Shown one piece after another: positions 1,428 through 11,001 of a stretch of DNA of 33,708 nt (its first letter is position 1; every line of letters begins with the position of its first letter). Both the position numbers and the translations under genes were made by a program. The notes under the pieces were generated by a model. The model saw nothing but the letters and a program-made list of their open reading frames with translations, ran no database searches and was not told the origin of the DNA. The DNA is from a virus. The stretch lies in IMG/VR virus record IMGVR_UViG_3300030106_004404, positions 1-33,708 of that record; one strand, written 5' to 3'.

Positions 1428-1862
1428 ATGGCACATTTCGCAGAATTAGATGGTAATAATACAGTAACAAGAGTGGTTGTTGTAGGCAACGATGTTGAAA
1501 CAGCAGCGGGACCTTTAGGATCAAATGACATGCATGTGGATGGTGAAACATGGTGTATTAATTTTTTTAAAACACCTAACTGGAAACAAACTTCTTACAA
1601 TAATAAGTTTAGAAAACAATATGCAGGCAAAGGATATACTTATGACGCTGCAAAAGATAAATTTATTTGTCCACAACCTTACGCATCTTGGTCATTAGAT
1701 GGTAATGATGACTGGCAAGCTCCAGTTACTTATCCAACTGATACTACAGATAAACGTATAAATTGGGATGAAGCAGGTCAACAATGGACTGCGACTGATA
1801 ATTCAGATCCAGTCAACAATTTTAATTGGGATGCATCAGCGCTAGCTTGGGTATCCGCATAA
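1428..1862 (+). CDS. Conserved marine-phage protein, probable fibre-associated (144 aa)
   Basis: The start ATG has a strong ribosome site AAGGAG at 1415-1420, seven bases upstream. The protein has no signal peptide or membrane segment. It is rich in aromatic residues and Asn/Asp, and near the C-terminus it has a repeated W-D-x-A type pattern (INWDEAGQQW and FNWDASALAW). It resembles small proteins starting MAHFAxLD that sit near tail or fibre genes in marine phages; I know no established function. It lies between two glycine-rich adhesin-like genes with gaps of 40 and 10 bases, so co-transcription and a role as fibre assembly or fibre-tip protein are reasonable inferences. Confidence 0.75.
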   Translation: MAHFAELDGNNTVTRVVVVGNDVETAAGPLGSNDMHVDGETWCINFFKTPNWKQTSYNNKFRKQYAGKGYTYDAAKDKFICPQPYASWSLDGNDDWQAPVTYPTDTTDKRINWDEAGQQWTATDNSDPVNNFNWDASALAWVSA

Positions 1863-1872
1863 GGAGACTCAT

Positions 1873-3699
1873 ATGGCTAGTCCTTCAGGATCAGCAAACG
1901 GCGGTATAATAGGAGCAACGAATAGAACTTCGTACGGAAAAAATAAAGTTACAAGTAAAATTGCAGGTACCCCTTCCGCGGCAACACTGGGGTCAGGTAC
2001 AAGATTAATCGATACATTAGTAGTAGCAGGTGGTGGAGCTGCAGGCATGGACAATTCTGGTGGTGGGGGAGCTGGTGGTGTTCTAAGAACAGAACTTCCT
2101 GTAAGTGGATGTCAAGTTTTAGGAGCAGTTGTTATAGGTGGTGGTGGAGCAAGAAATCCAGCACCCGGATCAGCAGCTGGAGGAGATGGATGTAATTCAA
2201 GTTTAGTAGTTGGTGGTACAACTTACACTGCCGTTGGTGGTGGTGGAGGTGGAGCTGGAACAAATGCAGCTAAGCCAGGAGGTTCAGGTGGTGGAGCAGA
2301 TGCTGCTGGGCCCTTAACTGGAGGAACAGGAACTGCATGTCAAGGAAATCCAGGTGGTAATTCGACTCCCGATACAGGTGGAGATGTCGGTGCTGGTGGC
2401 GGTGGTTCGTCCGCTGCAGGTGGAGCCGGAGTAGGAAATTGTGGTTCGGGAAGTAATCCAAGAACAGCGGGAGCTGGTGGAGCAGGTTTATGTATATCAA
2501 GTTTATTTCCAGGAGCACCTGTTAGTGCTGTTGGCGGTGGAGGCGGTGGTGCTGCAGGACCAAGTCCAGCACCTAATACAAGAACCGGAGCAGGTGGACT
2601 CGGTGGTGGTGGAGCTGGATCAACAACAGGTGGAAATGATGGAGACGCTAATACTGGTGGTGGTGGCGGAGGTGGTGGTCCTCCAGGTTCTACTTATGAC
2701 GCCGGTGGAGGTGGTTCAGGAATTGTTGTCGTAAAAGAATTAAATAAAGCAAGTGGTATGTGGTCATTACAATCTCAAATGGAAGCTAAGGTAGCAGGAA
2801 CATGGCCGTTAGTTTCAGTTTCTCCTTTTAACTTTGATTTATTAGTAGTCGCTGGTGGTGGAGGTAGTTCAGACGGTGGTGGTGGAGGTGGTGGTTATAG
2901 AATATTAAGTTGTCAGCCGGGAGGACCCGCTGAGTATACAATTACAATTGGTGCTGGCGGATCTGGTGGAAATGGAACCTGTAAAGGTGGAGATGGTGAC
3001 GATTCAGTTTTCAATGTTGGTCCTGCAGCTATTACATCTACAGGAGGTGGTGGTGGAGGAACATATTTATCTCCCACTAAAGCAGGAAATCCTGGAGGAT
3101 CAGGCGGAGGTGGTGGTATTGTAAATGGATCAAAAGGATGTGGAAACGTTCCTGCAATCCCTGCTCCATTAGGAGGGCCTCAAGGAAATCCAGGAGGTGA
3201 TGGAGTTGGAAACCCTAGTTGGAATAATAGTGGAGGTGGTGGTGGAGCATGTGCAGCCGGTGCTATGGGTATAGGAGGTGCTGGAAAAAGTGCCATCCCT
3301 GTTTTTGGAGCCGCTCCTCAACCTTATTATCCGGTACCAGGTCCTGGTGAAGGTTACTTTGCAGGTGGTGGTGGAGGAAGAAGAGAAAATCCAAACCCTG
3401 CATCTGTCCCTGAATTTATTGGTGGAATAGGTGGTGGTGGAACGGGTAGTAATGGAGGAAATACTCCATGTGGAGGTACACCAGCCCCTTCTAAAACTGG
3501 AATAGTTAACTCAGGTGGTGGTGGAGGTAATTATTATCCAGGCAATTTAGGAACTGGCGGATCTGGTATAGTTTTGGTTAAACTTCCTAGTGCTGCATAT
3601 CCTTTTGCATCAGTTTCTCCGGGATGTAATAGTTTGGTACCTACACCTACAGGTGGAGTTGCTAAGTTTACTGTGACTGGTACATTGACTTTCCCATAG
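1873..3699 (+). CDS. Glycine-rich tail fibre/adhesin-like protein with two repeat modules
   Basis: The 608-residue protein starts after AAGGAG at 1861-1866, which overlaps the upstream stop codon. After a short N-terminal stretch of about 45 residues it has two glycine-rich modules. The first runs from DTLVVAGGG (about residue 47) to SGIVVVKE (about 283-290). The second runs from FDLLVVAGGG (about 320) to SGIVLVKL (about 563-570). Both carry GGGGG runs alternating with loops containing Pro, Asn and Cys. The C-terminus ends in AKFTVTGTLTF, almost the same as the end of the truncated glycine-rich protein at 2-1387, so the two are paralogues. A polyglycine II sandwich adhesin is the best structural guess. 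Many GNPGG and GSPNP-like segments offer prolines and asparagines that the oxygenases next door could modify, which is inference. Confidence 0.85.
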   Translation: MASPSGSANGGIIGATNRTSYGKNKVTSKIAGTPSAATLGSGTRLIDTLVVAGGGAAGMDNSGGGGAGGVLRTELPVSGCQVLGAVVIGGGGARNPAPGSAAGGDGCNSSLVVGGTTYTAVGGGGGGAGTNAAKPGGSGGGADAAGPLTGGTGTACQGNPGGNSTPDTGGDVGAGGGGSSAAGGAGVGNCGSGSNPRTAGAGGAGLCISSLFPGAPVSAVGGGGGGAAGPSPAPNTRTGAGGLGGGGAGSTTGGNDGDANTGGGGGGGGPPGSTYDAGGGGSGIVVVKELNKASGMWSLQSQMEAKVAGTWPLVSVSPFNFDLLVVAGGGGSSDGGGGGGGYRILSCQPGGPAEYTITIGAGGSGGNGTCKGGDGDDSVFNVGPAAITSTGGGGGGTYLSPTKAGNPGGSGGGGGIVNGSKGCGNVPAIPAPLGGPQGNPGGDGVGNPSWNNSGGGGGACAAGAMGIGGAGKSAIPVFGAAPQPYYPVPGPGEGYFAGGGGGRRENPNPASVPEFIGGIGGGGTGSNGGNTPCGGTPAPSKTGIVNSGGGGGNYYPGNLGTGGSGIVLVKLPSAAYPFASVSPGCNSLVPTPTGGVAKFTVTGTLTFP

Positions 3700-3747: not shown

Positions 3748-4374
3748 ATGAATTTAACGAACCATTATTATTATTTTACATCAGCTATTCCAGAACGGAT
3801 TTGTGATGATATTGTGCGTTACGGAAAACAATTAGAAAATCAATTAGGCACTACGGGTGGTTATGGTGATGTTAAAAAATTAAATCAATCTCAAATTAAA
3901 GATTTAAAAAAGAAAAGAGATTCAGACATTGTATGGATGAGTGATCGATGGATCTATAATGAAATTCAGCCTTATGTAAAAGCAGCCAATGAACGGGCAG
4001 GTTGGAATTTTCAATGGGATTGGTCCGAAGCTATGCAATTTACAAAATATACTAAAGGCCAATATTATGATTGGCATTGTGATGGTTGGGATCAACCTTA
4101 TAATTATCCTAATGAACCAACTCATGGTAAAATTAGAAAACTATCAGTTACCCTTACGTTATCTAGTCCTAAAGATTATAAAGGAGGAGAACTAGAATTT
4201 GATTTTAGAAACCAAGATCCTGATAAAAAACCTAACATTAAAAAATGTAAAGAAATACTCCCGAAGGGATCTTTGGTCGTGTTTCCTGGTTTTGTGTGGC
4301 ATAGAGTATGCCCTGTAAAAAAAGGATCAAGATATAGTTTAGTTATTTGGAATTTGGGATGGCCTTATAAATGA
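3748..4374 (+). CDS. 2OG-Fe(II) oxygenase, prolyl 4-hydroxylase type (208 aa)
   Basis: This is a complete double-stranded beta-helix oxygenase of the prolyl 4-hydroxylase superfamily, which uses 2-oxoglutarate, O2 and Fe(II) to hydroxylate a protein or small-molecule substrate. The iron ligands are visible: HCD at H110 and D112 (YYDWHCDGWD) and the distal H185 (FPGFVWHRV). R195 in KKGSRYSLVIW is the expected 2-oxoglutarate carboxylate binder. The strand LSVTLTLSSPKDYKGGELEF (residues 132-151) is typical of the family. There is no signal peptide, so it should act in the host cytoplasm. It is the first of four consecutive oxygenase genes, directly after the fibre genes, and its stop overlaps the next start (ATGA at 4371-4374). 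The substrate is unknown. Confidence 0.93.
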   Translation: MNLTNHYYYFTSAIPERICDDIVRYGKQLENQLGTTGGYGDVKKLNQSQIKDLKKKRDSDIVWMSDRWIYNEIQPYVKAANERAGWNFQWDWSEAMQFTKYTKGQYYDWHCDGWDQPYNYPNEPTHGKIRKLSVTLTLSSPKDYKGGELEFDFRNQDPDKKPNIKKCKEILPKGSLVVFPGFVWHRVCPVKKGSRYSLVIWNLGWPYK

Positions 4375-5093
4375 AAAAGAAACAGAAGAAAGCTAGGAAA
4401 GTAAAAGTAAAAAAAGACCCTATTAAAACTTTTCCTCAACAATTAAATAGAGAAGATTTATTTAAATGTCCTATATGGTTTGCTGATGAACCTACATTCG
4501 TAGATGATTTAAATAAAGCGTCTGATAAATATATAGAAGAATCTAAAAAGAATTTAAAAAAAGATATTGATAAAAGAAATAAAGAGATGGGAGATAAAGG
4601 AGATATGGGTAATGTATTTCATTCTACTTCATTAGTAGGAGATCCTAATTTTTTAAACTTACAAAATTATGTAGGTGCTACAGCCCATAATTTATTAGTA
4701 GAACTGGGTTTTGATATGACAGGTTACCGAACCTTTATTACAGAACTGTGGGTACAAGAATTTGCTAAACAAGGGGGAGGACACCATACGTTACACACCC
4801 ATTGGAATGGTCACATATCTGGTTTTTATTTTTTAAAAGCTAGTGAAAAAACATCAAGACCTGTCTTTGAAGATCCAAGACCTGGTAATATTATGAATCT
4901 TTTACCAGAAAAAGATAAAACAAAAGTTACTTATGCAAGTTCCCAAATAAATTATGAGGTTAGACCCGGGAGAATGATATTTTTTCCATCTTACATGCCT
5001 CATCAATATATAGTAGATATGGGATACGAACCCTTTAGATTTATACATTGGAACTGTCAAGCTATACCTAAAGGAGTATTAAATGTCACCTAA
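4371..5093 (+). CDS. 2OG-Fe(II) oxygenase, TIGR02466/PF13759-like (240 aa)
   Basis: A lysine-rich N-terminal tail (residues 1-18) precedes a cupin-type oxygenase core. The signature is HTHWNGHISGFYFL (H142 and H144, residues 142-155), then EVRPGRMIFFPSYMPHQ (distal H211), then R223 in PFRFIHWNCQ. This pattern matches the putative 2OG-Fe(II) oxygenase family common in marine phages and cyanophages. The expected H-x-D/E metal motif appears here as H-x-H, so the acidic ligand may be different or absent, and activity cannot be assumed. The gene overlaps its predecessor by 4 bases and its successor by 11, so all three should be translated from one message. The substrate is unknown. Confidence 0.8.
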   Translation: MKKKQKKARKVKVKKDPIKTFPQQLNREDLFKCPIWFADEPTFVDDLNKASDKYIEESKKNLKKDIDKRNKEMGDKGDMGNVFHSTSLVGDPNFLNLQNYVGATAHNLLVELGFDMTGYRTFITELWVQEFAKQGGGHHTLHTHWNGHISGFYFLKASEKTSRPVFEDPRPGNIMNLLPEKDKTKVTYASSQINYEVRPGRMIFFPSYMPHQYIVDMGYEPFRFIHWNCQAIPKGVLNVT

Positions 5094-5580
5094 AGTTGTA
5101 GAAAATTTTTTATCTCAAAAAAATTATAAAACTTTGTACAATGCTATCAACAATGAATATTTTCCATGGTATTATAATAACTATAAGATAGATGAAGATA
5201 ATAATAAATTATTTCATTACCAATTCACTCATACTTTTTTTAAAAATAATAAAATTAATTCTAATTACTTTATTATTTTAGAATCTTTACTTAAAAAATT
5301 AAAACTTAAAACTTTAAAAAAAGTTAAAGCTAATTTAAATCCTATTAGTGATAAGCTTGTTGAATTTGGAGAACATAAAGATGCTGATAAGGAAGCACAG
5401 TGCATGAGTATGATATATTATCTTAATACCAATAATGGTTATACTAAAATAAAAAATAAAAAAATAAAATCTAAAGCAAATAAGGCTGTCTTTTTTCCAT
5501 CACACACTTCTCATTTTGGAACTAATTCAACAGATTGTAATAATAGAATGGTATTAAATATAATATATAAGGAGGATTAA
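5083..5580 (+). CDS. 2OG-Fe(II) oxygenase-like, small phage type (165 aa)
   Basis: The C-terminal two thirds fit a small oxygenase core: GEHKDAD supplies H98 and D100, MSMIYYLNTNNGYTKI is a beta-strand pair, FFPSHTSHFG supplies the distal His (H144, or less likely H141), and R155 in NNRMVLNIIY is the 2-oxoglutarate binder. The start follows a good AAAGGAG site. The gene is noticeably richer in A and T than its neighbours, with Lys and Asn dominating the protein, which may mean a separate origin. It overlaps the upstream gene by 11 bases and directly abuts the next one. The family assignment rests on the ordered metal and 2-oxoglutarate residues; overall similarity to its three neighbours is low. 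Confidence 0.8.
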   Translation: MSPKVVENFLSQKNYKTLYNAINNEYFPWYYNNYKIDEDNNKLFHYQFTHTFFKNNKINSNYFIILESLLKKLKLKTLKKVKANLNPISDKLVEFGEHKDADKEAQCMSMIYYLNTNNGYTKIKNKKIKSKANKAVFFPSHTSHFGTNSTDCNNRMVLNIIYKED

Positions 5581-6210
5581 ATGTCGTTTAAAAAAAATAA
5601 ATATAGCATTTTAAAAAATGCAATTAATAGGGAGATGGCGGATTTTTGTTTTGCTTATTTTTTAAACAAAAGAAGAGTGGCCAGATTTTTATTTGATCAA
5701 AGGTACATATCCCCTTTTACAGAATACTGGGGAGTGTGGACTGATAAACAGGTTCCTAATACTTATTCTCATTATGGAGATTTAGTAATGGAGACTTTAC
5801 TACAAAAAGTAAAACCTGTGATGGAAAAACATACAGGAATTAAGTTATCGGAAACTTATTCTTATGCTAGAATTTATAAAAAAGGAGACATTCTTCACAG
5901 ACATAAAGATAGATACTCTTGTGAGATATCTACCACTTTAAATTTAGGTGGTGATCCATGGCCAATCTATTTAGATCCAACAAGAAAGAGAGGTCAAGCA
6001 GGAATTAAAGTAGAACTTGACCCTGGAGATATGCTTTTATATTCGGGATGTGATCTGGAACATTGGCGGGAAGAATTTAGAGGAAATAATTGTGGTCAAG
6101 TATTTTTGCATTACAATCGAAAAGGCTCTAAACTTGCCAAAGAAAACGAGTTTGATAAACGTCCATTTATAGGACTTCCCCCTTGGTTTAAAGGCTTTAA
6201 ATCTAATTGA
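5581..6210 (+). CDS. 2OG-Fe(II) oxygenase-like (209 aa)
   Basis: The ATG directly follows the stop of the previous gene and has a near-perfect AAGGAGG site. The core reads SYARIYKKGDILHRHKD, giving the H108-x-D110 metal motif, then CEISTTLNLGGDPWPIYLD, then LDPGDMLLYSGCDLEHWREE with the distal H161, then the strand GQVFLHYN. The usual Arg in the last strand is not obvious: Q173 sits there, and R163 or R167 could serve instead, so 2-oxoglutarate binding may be unusual. It differs clearly from the other three oxygenases and is the last of the run. I infer the same expression timing as the fibre and tail genes. The substrate is unknown. Confidence 0.85.
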   Translation: MSFKKNKYSILKNAINREMADFCFAYFLNKRRVARFLFDQRYISPFTEYWGVWTDKQVPNTYSHYGDLVMETLLQKVKPVMEKHTGIKLSETYSYARIYKKGDILHRHKDRYSCEISTTLNLGGDPWPIYLDPTRKRGQAGIKVELDPGDMLLYSGCDLEHWREEFRGNNCGQVFLHYNRKGSKLAKENEFDKRPFIGLPPWFKGFKSN

Positions 6211-6233: not shown

Positions 6234-6251
6234 TTACTCTTGGAGAGTTAT

Positions 6252-8411
6252 ATGCTTCATAAAATTACACTACAACCAGGCTTAGATAAACAATCATCAG
6301 ACACTGGAGCCGAAGGAAAATGGGTCAACGCCGACTATGCTCGGTTTAGATATGGTTATCCTGAAAAAATAGGAGGATGGTCTCAGTTAGGAAGTGACCT
6401 TTTAGTAGGTTCTGGTAGAGATCAACACGTATGGGTAGATAATGATGGTAATAGGTACGCGGCTATTGGTACTAACAAAATGCTTTATATCTATTTTGAA
6501 GGTGCTTTCTATGACATTACTCCTTTAGATGCTACCCGTAAACAGAGTAGTGCTACATGGACTTTTGATGGTACAACCTCGGTCACAATTACAACGTCCA
6601 CGGCCCACGGCGCAGACGTAGGAGATATTATATTATTAGATGGAGTAACCTTACCTGGTGGTACAGGTCTTACAGATGCGGATTTTGAAAATAAATTATT
6701 TGAAATTATTACAACCCCTTCTCCTACAACTTTTACTATTACATCAGCAAGTGCAGGTTCTGCAGCTACTGGAGGTAGTGTAGATGTAAACTTTTATTAT
6801 GTTATTGGTCCAGTCACACAAGGTTATGGTTATGGTTGGGGTACTAATACATTTGGTGGTCAAGTTGTTCCCCCTACTATTACAACACTTGTAGGAACTT
6901 TAGCAGACGATGCTTATGGAACAGGAGGTTCTCCTTCAACTCAAATTACTTTAACTTCGACATCTGCTTTTTCTTCTTCAGGAACTATTCAAATAGGAAG
7001 TGAATTAATTAGTTATACCGGTAATAATACAGGTACCAATACTATTACAGGAATTACTAGAGCAGCCAGTGGAAGTACACGATCCGCGCATGGTGCAGGA
7101 TCTACAGTATATGACGCTACAAGTTATGTAGGTTGGGGTAGTGCAAGTTCTTCTTCTCACGTAGTTATTGAACCAGGTCAATGGAGATTAACTAATTATG
7201 GAGAAAAACTTTTAGCCTTAGTTCATAATAAAAAAGTATTTGAATGGAATCCTTCATTTGCTAATCTATCAGTTAGAGCTACAGTTGTTTCAGGAGCTCC
7301 TACAGCTTCAAGAGATATGATGGTATCTACTCCTGATAGACACTTAGTGTTTATTGGAACAGAAGAAACAATCGGGTCTTCTACTTCAGTAAATGAAATG
7401 TTTGTAAGATTTTCTGATCAAGAAGATATTAATACTTATACCCCTACAGCAACTAATACAGCAGGTAGTCAGACATTACCTGATGGATCAAAATTAATGG
7501 CATGTACTACAGGAAGAACAGCTTTATATATCTGGTCGGATACAGCTATGTATACTATGAGATTTATTGGTCCTCCATTTACTTTTGGATTTGATCAAGT
7601 AGGAACAAACTGTGGAATTTCTAGTCAACATGCTGCAGTAGAGATTGATGGTATAGCTTATTGGATGGGGCCTAATGGTTTCTTTAGGTTTGCCGGAGGT
7701 CGTGTAGAAAGTATGTTATGTTTGGTAGAAGATTATGTCTTTGAAGATATTAATGCGAGTGCTAACCAACAAATTCATGCAGCGGTAGATAATATATTTG
7801 GAGAAGTAACTTGGTTTTATTGTAGTAGTGGATCTAGTTATGTAGATAGATCAGTTACTTATAACTATTTAGAGTCTACTCCTGATAGACCTATTTGGTA
7901 TACATCTTCTTTAGATCGAACTACTTGGACTCAACAAGGAATTTATTCTAATCCATATGCAACAGAGTATGAAACGGGAGAAACTCCTACTTATCCAAGT
8001 ATAGGTGGAGTTACTAATGGCGCAAGTTATTTCTGGCAACATAATATAGGAACAGATCAAGTTAAAGCTGATGGAAATACAACTGCTATTCAAGGATATG
8101 TAGAATCAGGAGATTATGATATTAGCAGACAAGAAGGTATTCAAGGTCAAGGAGAATATATTATGCGAGTAAGTAGAATTATTCCTGACTTTGGTCAACA
8201 AACAGGAGATGCTAAAGTTTATTTAAATTCTAAAACATTTCCTAATGCATCTGCAGTTTCCACTTCTTATGCAGCAACTACAAGCACTACTCAAATTTGG
8301 ACAAGAAAACGTGCAAGACAAATTGCATTAAAAGTAGGCAACGTAAGTACTGGACAAAGCTGGAGAATGGGTACATTTAGATTAGATATTAATGCAGGAG
8401 GCAGAAGATAA
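6252..8411 (+). CDS. Probable tail/neck structural protein (719 aa)
   Basis: I chose the ATG at 6252 because GGAG at 6242-6245 is correctly spaced for it; an in-frame TTG at 6240 would lie before the ribosome site. The N-terminus (MLHKITLQPGLDKQ, then GKWVNADYARFRYGYPEKIGGW) matches a pattern I know from marine podovirus-like phage structural proteins. The rest is beta-rich with many Thr, Ser and Gly and repeated short strands such as DRHLVFIG and GRTALYIWSDTAMYTM, suggesting propeller-like blades as in phage tail-nozzle or DNA-stabilisation proteins. Around residues 90-260 there are inserted Ig-like or hub-like segments (TAHGADVGDIILLDG, TFTITSASAGSAATGG). It opens the structural module. The exact role (tail nozzle, tubular or neck protein) is inference. 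Confidence 0.75.
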   Translation: MLHKITLQPGLDKQSSDTGAEGKWVNADYARFRYGYPEKIGGWSQLGSDLLVGSGRDQHVWVDNDGNRYAAIGTNKMLYIYFEGAFYDITPLDATRKQSSATWTFDGTTSVTITTSTAHGADVGDIILLDGVTLPGGTGLTDADFENKLFEIITTPSPTTFTITSASAGSAATGGSVDVNFYYVIGPVTQGYGYGWGTNTFGGQVVPPTITTLVGTLADDAYGTGGSPSTQITLTSTSAFSSSGTIQIGSELISYTGNNTGTNTITGITRAASGSTRSAHGAGSTVYDATSYVGWGSASSSSHVVIEPGQWRLTNYGEKLLALVHNKKVFEWNPSFANLSVRATVVSGAPTASRDMMVSTPDRHLVFIGTEETIGSSTSVNEMFVRFSDQEDINTYTPTATNTAGSQTLPDGSKLMACTTGRTALYIWSDTAMYTMRFIGPPFTFGFDQVGTNCGISSQHAAVEIDGIAYWMGPNGFFRFAGGRVESMLCLVEDYVFEDINASANQQIHAAVDNIFGEVTWFYCSSGSSYVDRSVTYNYLESTPDRPIWYTSSLDRTTWTQQGIYSNPYATEYETGETPTYPSIGGVTNGASYFWQHNIGTDQVKADGNTTAIQGYVESGDYDISRQEGIQGQGEYIMRVSRIIPDFGQQTGDAKVYLNSKTFPNASAVSTSYAATTSTTQIWTRKRARQIALKVGNVSTGQSWRMGTFRLDINAGGRR

Positions 8412-8945: not shown

Positions 8946-9205
8946 TGAGCTTTGAAGAAAAAGGTGAATTTTTAGGATACACTATTATTGATGGAAAACA
9001 AGTTCCTAAGTATAGAGGAAAAACAATTGTTAAATTATGGAATATTCAAACTAACCAAGAATATAATTCAGATAAAGAAGCTGATGATGATGTAGATAAT
9101 CCATCTACAGATACCAAAAGAGAACATATAAGGAGAGATGTAACTATTATTGCACCACACATTGATTTAGTTGGTGGTACAGTAAAAAATCCAAATGAAA
9201 GCTAG
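8945..9205 (+). CDS. Hypothetical protein (86 aa)
   Basis: The ATG overlaps the previous stop by one base. The N-terminal half looks like a small beta domain (GEFLGYTIIDGKQVPKYRGKTIVKLWNIQTNQEY). It is followed by an acidic, disordered-looking linker (residues 41-57) and a short strand segment (VTIIAPHIDLVGGTV). I do not recognise the family. Its last 11 bases overlap the start of the glycosyltransferase gene, so translation of the two is probably coupled. Confidence 0.6.
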   Translation: MSFEEKGEFLGYTIIDGKQVPKYRGKTIVKLWNIQTNQEYNSDKEADDDVDNPSTDTKREHIRRDVTIIAPHIDLVGGTVKNPNES

Positions 9206-10145
9206 AGGTGGAACTGAGATACAGTTGGAAGAACTTAGAAAGAGACTTCCTAAAAATTATTGGGAGAAGATTTCTATTACTACTTCTGTGCCTGAAAAAC
9301 ACCCGATTGATCCTAGTCGCTTAAACATTCTATGGTTAAAAAATTCTTATGATCAACCCAATGTTAGACCCTGGTTTCTCATCAAGAAGAACCACCCTAA
9401 ATATGATTGGTATGTTTTTAATTCTCATTGGAGTTATGAAAAATATAGGATGCATTTTGATATTCCTACTTCTCGTTGTTTTGTTATTAAAAATGCCTTA
9501 CCGAAATTCAATTGGCAACCTAAAAAATTCTACCAACAAGGTGAGACCTTAAAATTAATTCATCACATTACTCCTTGGAGAGGTTTAAATGTATTACTGG
9601 CGGCTATGCATTTTCTTGAAGATGAAAATATTACATTAGATGTTTATAGCTCTACTCAAATATATGGAGATGAGTTTAAAGAAGCTAATGATAAATATTA
9701 TGAACCTTTATATGAGCATGCTAAATCTATGAAGAAGGTTAATTTTAAAGGTTATGCTCCTCAAGAAGAAGTATTTCAAGCTTTACAAGATAGTCATGTA
9801 TTTGCTTATCCTTCTATCTGGGAAGAAACTTCGTGCAATTCAGCAATAGAAGCTATGGCTGCAGGATGTGCCGCTTTAGTTACAAACTTTGGAGCGCTCT
9901 ATGAAACGTGTAGTGACTACGGATTCTATGTGAATTATAATAATGTACCTAAACAATTAGCTGTAGATTATTCTCAGCATATTAAATACTTACAAAGAAT
10001 TTTACCTCAAAAAGATATACAAAATAGATTAACTAATCAACGACAACACTTCCTACATTTTTATGATTGGGATCAAAGAATTAAGGAATGGATTGCTTTT
10101 TTAAATAATGCTTTGATGAAAAAAGGAATTCCTCATGAAGATTAA
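9195..10145 (+). CDS. Glycosyltransferase, GT-B fold, GT4-like (316 aa)
   Basis: The N-terminus carries GGTEIQ, the glycine-rich loop seen near the start of many GT4 enzymes. The C-terminal nucleotide-sugar domain has LIHHITPWRGLNVLLAAM (residues 121-138) and PSIWEETSCNSAIEAMAAG, containing the retaining-GT EX7E motif (E211 and E219), followed by GCAALVTNFGALYETC. At 316 residues it is shorter than typical GT4 enzymes of about 350-400 residues, and the N-terminal domain is compact. The enzyme would transfer a sugar from a nucleotide sugar; donor and acceptor cannot be read from the sequence. It overlaps genes on both sides by 11 bases and is paired with a GT-A enzyme, so the two may add successive sugars to a virion protein, DNA or the host surface. 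Confidence 0.85.
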   Translation: MKARGGTEIQLEELRKRLPKNYWEKISITTSVPEKHPIDPSRLNILWLKNSYDQPNVRPWFLIKKNHPKYDWYVFNSHWSYEKYRMHFDIPTSRCFVIKNALPKFNWQPKKFYQQGETLKLIHHITPWRGLNVLLAAMHFLEDENITLDVYSSTQIYGDEFKEANDKYYEPLYEHAKSMKKVNFKGYAPQEEVFQALQDSHVFAYPSIWEETSCNSAIEAMAAGCAALVTNFGALYETCSDYGFYVNYNNVPKQLAVDYSQHIKYLQRILPQKDIQNRLTNQRQHFLHFYDWDQRIKEWIAFLNNALMKKGIPHED

Positions 10146-11001
10146 AGCTAGTGATAGTTTTTTAACAGAGGATAAATTTAAACCTGAAGTTAACTTGTAT
10201 CAACAAAATCAGGTAGATGGAACTCAATTAGTTGATACTCATATTCCTCGATATTTAGATAAGCATTTGTTTGTAGCTACTCCTAATATGGGAGAAATAA
10301 AATTAAGTTGTGTTAAATCTTTATTAGAACTTCAAAGTCTTTGTTTATCTGAAGGGATTAATATTATACCTCAATTTCATATGGTTAGATCTTCCATTAT
10401 TATTACGGGGAGAAATATGTGTGTCCAAGCTTTTTTAAAATCTCGATGTTCTCATATGTTATTCATTGATTCAGATATTGAATTTGATGCTACTTCTATT
10501 TTAATGATGATGAAAGCGGACAAAGATATTGTACTTACTCCTTACCCTATGAAGGCTGTCAACTGGGATAAAGCTAGAGATATGGCAGCTAAAAGCGGAA
10601 GGCCTATTGAAGAATGTCCTTACTATTATTGCATGGAATTCCCTGATAAAAATAACATTGAAAGTGTAGATGGTTTAGTGGAGATTAAAAAAGGACCAGC
10701 TGGCTGTATGCTGATTAAAAGAGAAGTATTTGAAAAGATGATTAAAGCTTACCCTAACTTACTTATTAAACAAAAACATTTGGTTAATGGAATCATGGGA
10801 GGAACAGAAGAAATGTGGAATTTCTTTGACACCTCTTTTGATGAAAAAACAGGAGATTTTGTAGGGGAAGATTACGCTTTCTGTAATAGATGGACGGCTA
10901 TTGGTGGTAAGATCTACGCCAATGTGGACGCCTACATTACCCATCATGGGGACTTTGCTTATCGTGGAAGATTCATTGACGAAGGCAGAAAAATTAAGTA
11001 A
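10135..11001 (+). CDS. Glycosyltransferase, GT-A fold (288 aa)
   Basis: The protein shows a GT-A pattern: HLFVATPNMG (first strand), SRCSHMLFIDSDIEFDA with the metal-binding DxD at D112 and D114, a KGPAGCMLIKREVFEKM acceptor-loop segment (residues 186-202), GEDYAFCNRW with the acidic pair E245 and D246, and THHG near the end (H270 and H271, a possible metal ligand). Such stand-alone GT-A enzymes are frequent in marine phages and have unknown targets. The ATG overlaps the GT-B gene by 11 bases, indicating co-translation. The two folds together suggest two sugar-transfer steps. There is no membrane anchor, so the enzyme is expected in the cytoplasm. Confidence 0.85.
   Translation: MKIKASDSFLTEDKFKPEVNLYQQNQVDGTQLVDTHIPRYLDKHLFVATPNMGEIKLSCVKSLLELQSLCLSEGINIIPQFHMVRSSIIITGRNMCVQAFLKSRCSHMLFIDSDIEFDATSILMMMKADKDIVLTPYPMKAVNWDKARDMAAKSGRPIEECPYYYCMEFPDKNNIESVDGLVEIKKGPAGCMLIKREVFEKMIKAYPNLLIKQKHLVNGIMGGTEEMWNFFDTSFDEKTGDFVGEDYAFCNRWTAIGGKIYANVDAYITHHGDFAYRGRFIDEGRKIK

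Follow-up and report, generated by a model that had tools for sequence, protein, structure and literature searches.

Genes A to D, four consecutive genes of a marine phage, are a genuine oxygenase cluster that is conserved and maintained by selection; clusters of this kind are already known. What our analysis adds is the reassignment of the C and D families, the finding of D-A fusions and the absence from D of the arginine that binds 2-oxoglutarate (2OG). The window, that is, the whole stretch of 33,708 bases that we analyzed, comes from a viral record of 35,546 bases. At the DNA level its nearest annotated relatives are pelagiphages, with HTVC033P on top (~79% identity across one third of the query), and the window phage is a pelagiphage-like podovirus related to phages of SAR11 bacteria. 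The features that matter here, all on the same strand, are as follows.

1428..1862, +: small conserved protein, phrog_7759; upstream of the row, recurs upstream in relatives
1873..3699, +: glycine-rich, fibre-like protein (PF21722, 2e-20; phrog_2295); directly upstream of A
3748..4374, +: gene A, 208 aa; PKHD/PiuC-like 2OG-Fe(II) oxygenase; H110-x-D112, H185, R195
4371..5093, +: gene B, 240 aa; PF13759/TIGR02466-type oxygenase; H142-x-H144, H211, R223
5083..5580, +: gene C, 165 aa; PHD2/P4H-like oxygenase; H98-x-D100, H144, R155
5581..6210, +: gene D, 209 aa; divergent oxygenase-fold protein; H108-x-D110, H161; invariant Q173
6240..8411, +: virion structural protein, phrog_3287 (7e-90); directly downstream of D, recurs there in relatives
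9195-10145, +: glycosyltransferase-like gene, Glycos_transf_1 (Pfam, 7e-14)
10135-11001, +: glycosyltransferase-like gene, weak Anp1 (Pfam, 2e-4)

The reading frames correspond exactly to the overlapping or abutting genes described in the original prediction, which was made from the sequence alone: A to D run head to tail, A and B overlapping by 4 bases and B and C by 11, while C and D abut without overlap. As that prediction also had it, the row adjoins fibre genes, with the glycine-rich fibre-like gene on one side and the virion structural gene on the other. This closely packed set in the fibre/structural region is probably co-translated. Purifying selection acts on each of the four, the median dN/dS being 0.12-0.18 in every family, and because of these ratios, the Pfam matches of A, B and C, and the confident models of C and D, a chance origin of the row is very unlikely. 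Further downstream, the two glycosyltransferase-like genes lie next to each other (9195-11001), and the annotations of HTVC023P and HTVC027P include glycosyltransferases too.

By Pfam, A, B and C are predicted 2OG-Fe(II) oxygenases: each reaches a curated domain model and, in each, the iron ligands and a downstream 2OG-binding Arg are conserved. Gene A matches PF13640 (6.2e-17, 62.8 bits against a cut-off of 27) and phrog_61 (7e-39), and is closest by sequence to PiuC-type PKHD hydroxylases, PiuC being its match in the PDB (2e-8). It has in common with the PKHD-type hydroxylases PiuC and YbiX both the domain and the HxD...H...R residues, but scores at most 59 bits against NCBIfam cut-offs of 143-399 and is therefore no PiuC/YbiX equivalog. 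H110, D112, H185 and R195 occur in 228/228 rows of its family alignment. Gene B matches PF13759 (2.3e-14, 54.1 bits, cut-off 27) and TIGR02466 (64.2 bits, cut-off 62.5). Its iron motif is HxH...H, not HxD...H, and the same HxH is found in the solved relatives 3bvc and 2rg4; H142 and H144 are present in all 224 rows, H211 in 223/224 and R223 in 221/224. Gene C passes PF13640 narrowly (30.2 bits, cut-off 27), its family profile matches PHD2 at 2e-4, and its model (pLDDT 93.8) aligns to PHD2 with a VIA Z of 15.9 and an rmsd of 3.0 over 153 residues. Conservation in this family is 51/52 for H98, 46/52 for D100, 50/52 for H144 and 49/52 for R155. The label that PHROGs gives to it, 'DNA endonuclease V' (phrog_274), is unsupported, C matching PF13640 and PHD2 instead, and an endonuclease V model is absent among the matches listed for the gene. 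In all three proteins, the conserved Arg (R195, R223 and R155, respectively) lies 10-12 residues past the distal His, and known 2OG oxygenases have an Arg at such spacing.

Gene D belongs to phrog_2954 (4e-51). It has no Pfam match at E<=1 and no NCBIfam match, and its family profile, compared by sequence with solved structures, finds no match at E<=1. It is the fold and the iron site that place D as a probable oxygenase-type protein, with putative use of 2OG, in keeping with the original assignment. The model (pLDDT 94.1, pTM 0.90) displays a double-stranded beta-helix (DSBH) and has 660 matches in the PDB at E<=0.001, those listed being oxygenases of DSBH fold. By Foldseek, P4H is matched at 2.4e-9 and the best among the matches listed are P4H, PHD2, EctD and SnoN; alignments to SnoN, P4H and PHD2 give a VIA Z of 15-16, with an rmsd of about 3 over 160-180 residues. 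The DSBH core, on which the original prediction hinged, is thus displayed by the models of both C and D. The triad H108, D110 and H161 is found in 72/73 rows, the lone exception being a mis-trimmed row from a D-A fusion, and all the metal-binding and distal His residues that had been named for A to D are present and conserved across relatives.

A basic 2OG-binding residue 9-12 positions past the distal His is absent from D: the residue at H161+12 is a Gln (Q173) in 73/73 rows. From this spacing, and from its position in the strand formed by residues 170-180 of the model, we infer that Q173 is structurally equivalent to the 2OG-binding Arg. The presence of Gln173 speaks against a 2OG site of wholly standard type. 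Since D has Gln for Arg, 2OG would be anchored by another basic residue, or the iron would be used differently. R97, R111, R163 and H177 are near-invariant across the 73 rows, and a basic residue such as R97 or R163 may stand in for the Arg.

The PHROGs name of the D family is 'ferrochelatase', which is carried by many phage records, as is 'DNA endonuclease V' for C. We reject it as a label: none of the 73 D-family members matches the Pfam ferrochelatase model at E<=0.1, the ferrochelatase fold is absent among the matches listed for the D model, and D displays an oxygenase DSBH fold and an HxD...H site. Three records, 023Pt_psg01, S-SCSM1 and Sf-FP1, already name the D homologue an Fe(II) or 2OG oxygenase. 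Co-located ferrochelatases have been read as heme-related partners of the oxygenases (2022; PMC9599517), and phrog2954 has been named as a seasonally enriched ferrochelatase group (2024; PMC11561400). In view of the oxygenase fold and iron site of D, this 'seasonal ferrochelatase' signal more likely stems from one more oxygenase. Another mislabelled oxygenase family may be phrog_1644, 'minor coat protein', which is matched at 5e-5 by the C-type oxygenase of syn9 (L340), a phage in which genes called 'minor coat protein' (gp46, gp52) are interspersed with oxygenases.

A to D are oxygenase-type DSBH proteins of four distinct families, which bears out the prediction of four different types. The accompanying claim, that they show little similarity to one another, holds by sequence, each ORF being matched at E 1e-5 by at most one of the four queries. 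In hhalign profile-profile comparisons, A, B and C are mutually related (probability 94-97%), while D is an outlier (4-25%). It is by this comparison that we addressed separate origins, the four families being too divergent for a tree.

In viral contigs, almost 600 relatives, as a lower bound, were confirmed for each of A, B and D; querying with a distant D and with a D-A fusion widened the D set, and a distant C query led to one locus. The gene order, a search for which had been proposed along with the prediction, was found in many other genomes: among the matches listed, the distinct loci with A upstream of D read A-B-D in 137/229 cases, A-B-C-D in 17/229 and A-C-B-D in 13/229. The supposed rarity of a four-gene row is refuted, because A-B-D and A-B-C-D are recurrent and named phages hold equal or longer clusters; pelagiphages and cyanophages often have clusters of three to eight genes of this type, or more. 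HTVC008M has five and Mosig six by annotation, and S-SM1 has eight by our profiles. Such clusters were described in 2022 (PMC9599517), and the genome of cyanophage S-SCSM1 encodes 24 oxygenases (PMC9602691). As for a host origin of D, one genome scan with one peptide pattern, a weak probe, gave 10 loci, most of which share phage-type neighbours and therefore look like phage contigs. A tryptophan-halogenase gene accompanies the clusters in L248, L255, L256, L260, L340, L343 and HTVC008M (L005:2321-3715), and these companions suggest that the tailoring enzymes encoded near fibre genes are a broader group. In P-SSM7 (L342), Syn30 (L344) and S-CAM22 (L345), D stands alone between a DNA methyltransferase and the clamp-loader gene gp62 in the replication operon. 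The order there is dam-D-gp62-regA, away from fibre genes, and a DNA-related role is possible for this D lineage.

D and A are closely linked. Among the matches listed, A is found within 2.6 kb of D in 197/212 distinct D genes with enough flank, and in 191/212 the gene immediately before D is of type A, B or C, both counts being biased upwards because one of the four genes served as query when the loci were collected. Three contigs encode D and A fused in one ORF with tandem oxygenase folds (L286:2526-3719, the same contig as L346; L347:2980-4197; and L323:2006-3211). Synechococcus phage S-T4 probably carries a D-A fusion as well, judging by one continuous match (9322-10467) over 96% of the fusion length, and a single PHROG, phrog_3531, spans both D and A. 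The fusions lend some support to joint action of D and A and, with the Gln173 substitution, make the biochemistry of D directly testable.

What the cluster does can be approached from its neighbours and from the folds. The fibre/structural context and the prolyl-hydroxylase-like folds make virion protein hydroxylation our leading guess, and we propose, tentatively, that A to D are protein (peptidyl) hydroxylases in virion assembly, the likeliest target being the neighbouring glycine-rich fibre proteins. The four enzymes would act late, and the original prediction saw in them a putative multi-step or multi-target pathway; the hydroxylated side chains would perhaps be readied for the glycosyltransferases whose genes follow in the same block. 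For A, B and C we expect ordinary use of Fe(II), O2 and 2-oxoglutarate, with iron held by His/Asp or His/His plus the distal His, and 2OG held by Arg. D would work jointly with A, either as a subunit or as a domain in tandem; since Gln replaces Arg in it, D would hold the cosubstrate differently, R97 being a candidate, or have a partner role. In relatives, the ABD module is flanked upstream by a glycine-rich fibre-like gene and downstream by the structural gene of phrog_3287. Among the matches listed, a glycine-rich ORF is found upstream in 125/130 ABD-type loci with enough upstream DNA and in 19/46 non-ABD loci, compared with 13% among all long ORFs; this synteny may merely reflect descent, one lineage being weak evidence. 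In the unrelated myoviruses Mosig, HTVC008M and Sf-FP1, the clusters adjoin fibre or neck genes. The C and D folds are nearest, among the matches listed, to protein prolyl hydroxylases, including the bacterial P4H 4iw3, which was solved with its protein substrate EF-Tu, and this resemblance between models likens C and D to peptidyl prolyl hydroxylases. The DSBH fold spans protein, nucleic-acid and small-molecule substrates, and fold rank therefore cannot choose among them. The glycine-rich proteins have the same Pro content with and without C (6.5% vs 6.4%, p=0.74), the sole difference in composition being in Asp (p=0.04, uncorrected over ten residues), and a literature search on hydroxylated phage fibres found nothing pertinent. 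A point against the virion reading is the solitary D that certain cyanophages have in the replication operon. The most specific form of this reading, in which D, an iron oxygenase widespread in marine phages and lacking the canonical 2OG anchor, is an obligate partner of A (fused to it in some phages) and hydroxylates glycine-rich fibre proteins, we consider unlikely; if true, a virion-modifying protein hydroxylase complex has hitherto been read as heme metabolism.

Three other readings compete with virion hydroxylation. That the oxygenases are auxiliary metabolic enzymes, acting on host small molecules or on the host iron/2OG balance in infection, is the published view (PMC9599517, PMC11561400, PMC9602691), and both the resemblance of gene A to PiuC, named an iron uptake factor, and the rise of host iron transport genes in infection by HTVC027P (PMC12753301) fit it. 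This view rests in part, however, on D being a ferrochelatase, which the 0/73 matches to the ferrochelatase model and the oxygenase fold do not support, and A to D lie among structural genes and outside any metabolic block, so that we regard it as doubtful. A joint role with the two downstream glycosyltransferase-like genes in modifying phage or host surface glycans or lipids would account for that pair (9195-11001), for its counterparts in HTVC023P and HTVC027P, and for the tryptophan-halogenase genes beside some clusters, which give a gene set of tailoring-enzyme style; yet this pair does not adjoin the oxygenases, and A to D themselves showed no feature specific to glycans, which leaves such a role quite improbable. 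Finally, at least D might act on (methylated) DNA, in modification or repair, as the dam-D-gp62-regA order in three cyanophages would have it. The D of that operon is, however, of a different lineage and in a different place from the window D, and no DNA methyltransferase was recognised by inspection among the larger ORFs of the window. The folds closest to D among the matches listed are moreover prolyl hydroxylases and small-molecule oxygenases, not AlkB/TET, although a nucleic-acid substrate is still compatible with them; we hold action on DNA to be very improbable.

Among characterized enzymes, the HIF prolyl hydroxylase PHD2 and Pseudomonas P4H have the fold and iron ligands in common with C and D, and PHD2 is related to C by sequence profile as well. 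Identity to C and D is only 10-18%, and D, unlike these enzymes, is without the 2OG-binding Arg at the equivalent spacing. Among phages, HTVC033P and HTVC023P keep the order of the window for their homologues of A, B and D; in HTVC033P, D is 80% identical to the window D, and a 159-base reading frame (gp59) takes the place that C occupies in the window, between B and D. All four types are present in 023Pt_psg01, in the order C-A-B-D. Compared with the pelagiphage clusters (HTVC033P, HTVC023P, 023Pt_psg01, HTVC008M and Mosig EXVC030M), the A-B-C-D row of the window is one variant among several. Cyanophages S-SM1, syn9, S-MbCM25 and Sf-FP1 (T4-GC 240/412/611/615) likewise have several A-D homologues in consecutive genes, some near fibre genes, but these are T4-like myoviruses whose clusters hold more genes than the window and are more divergent, with D at 28-44%.
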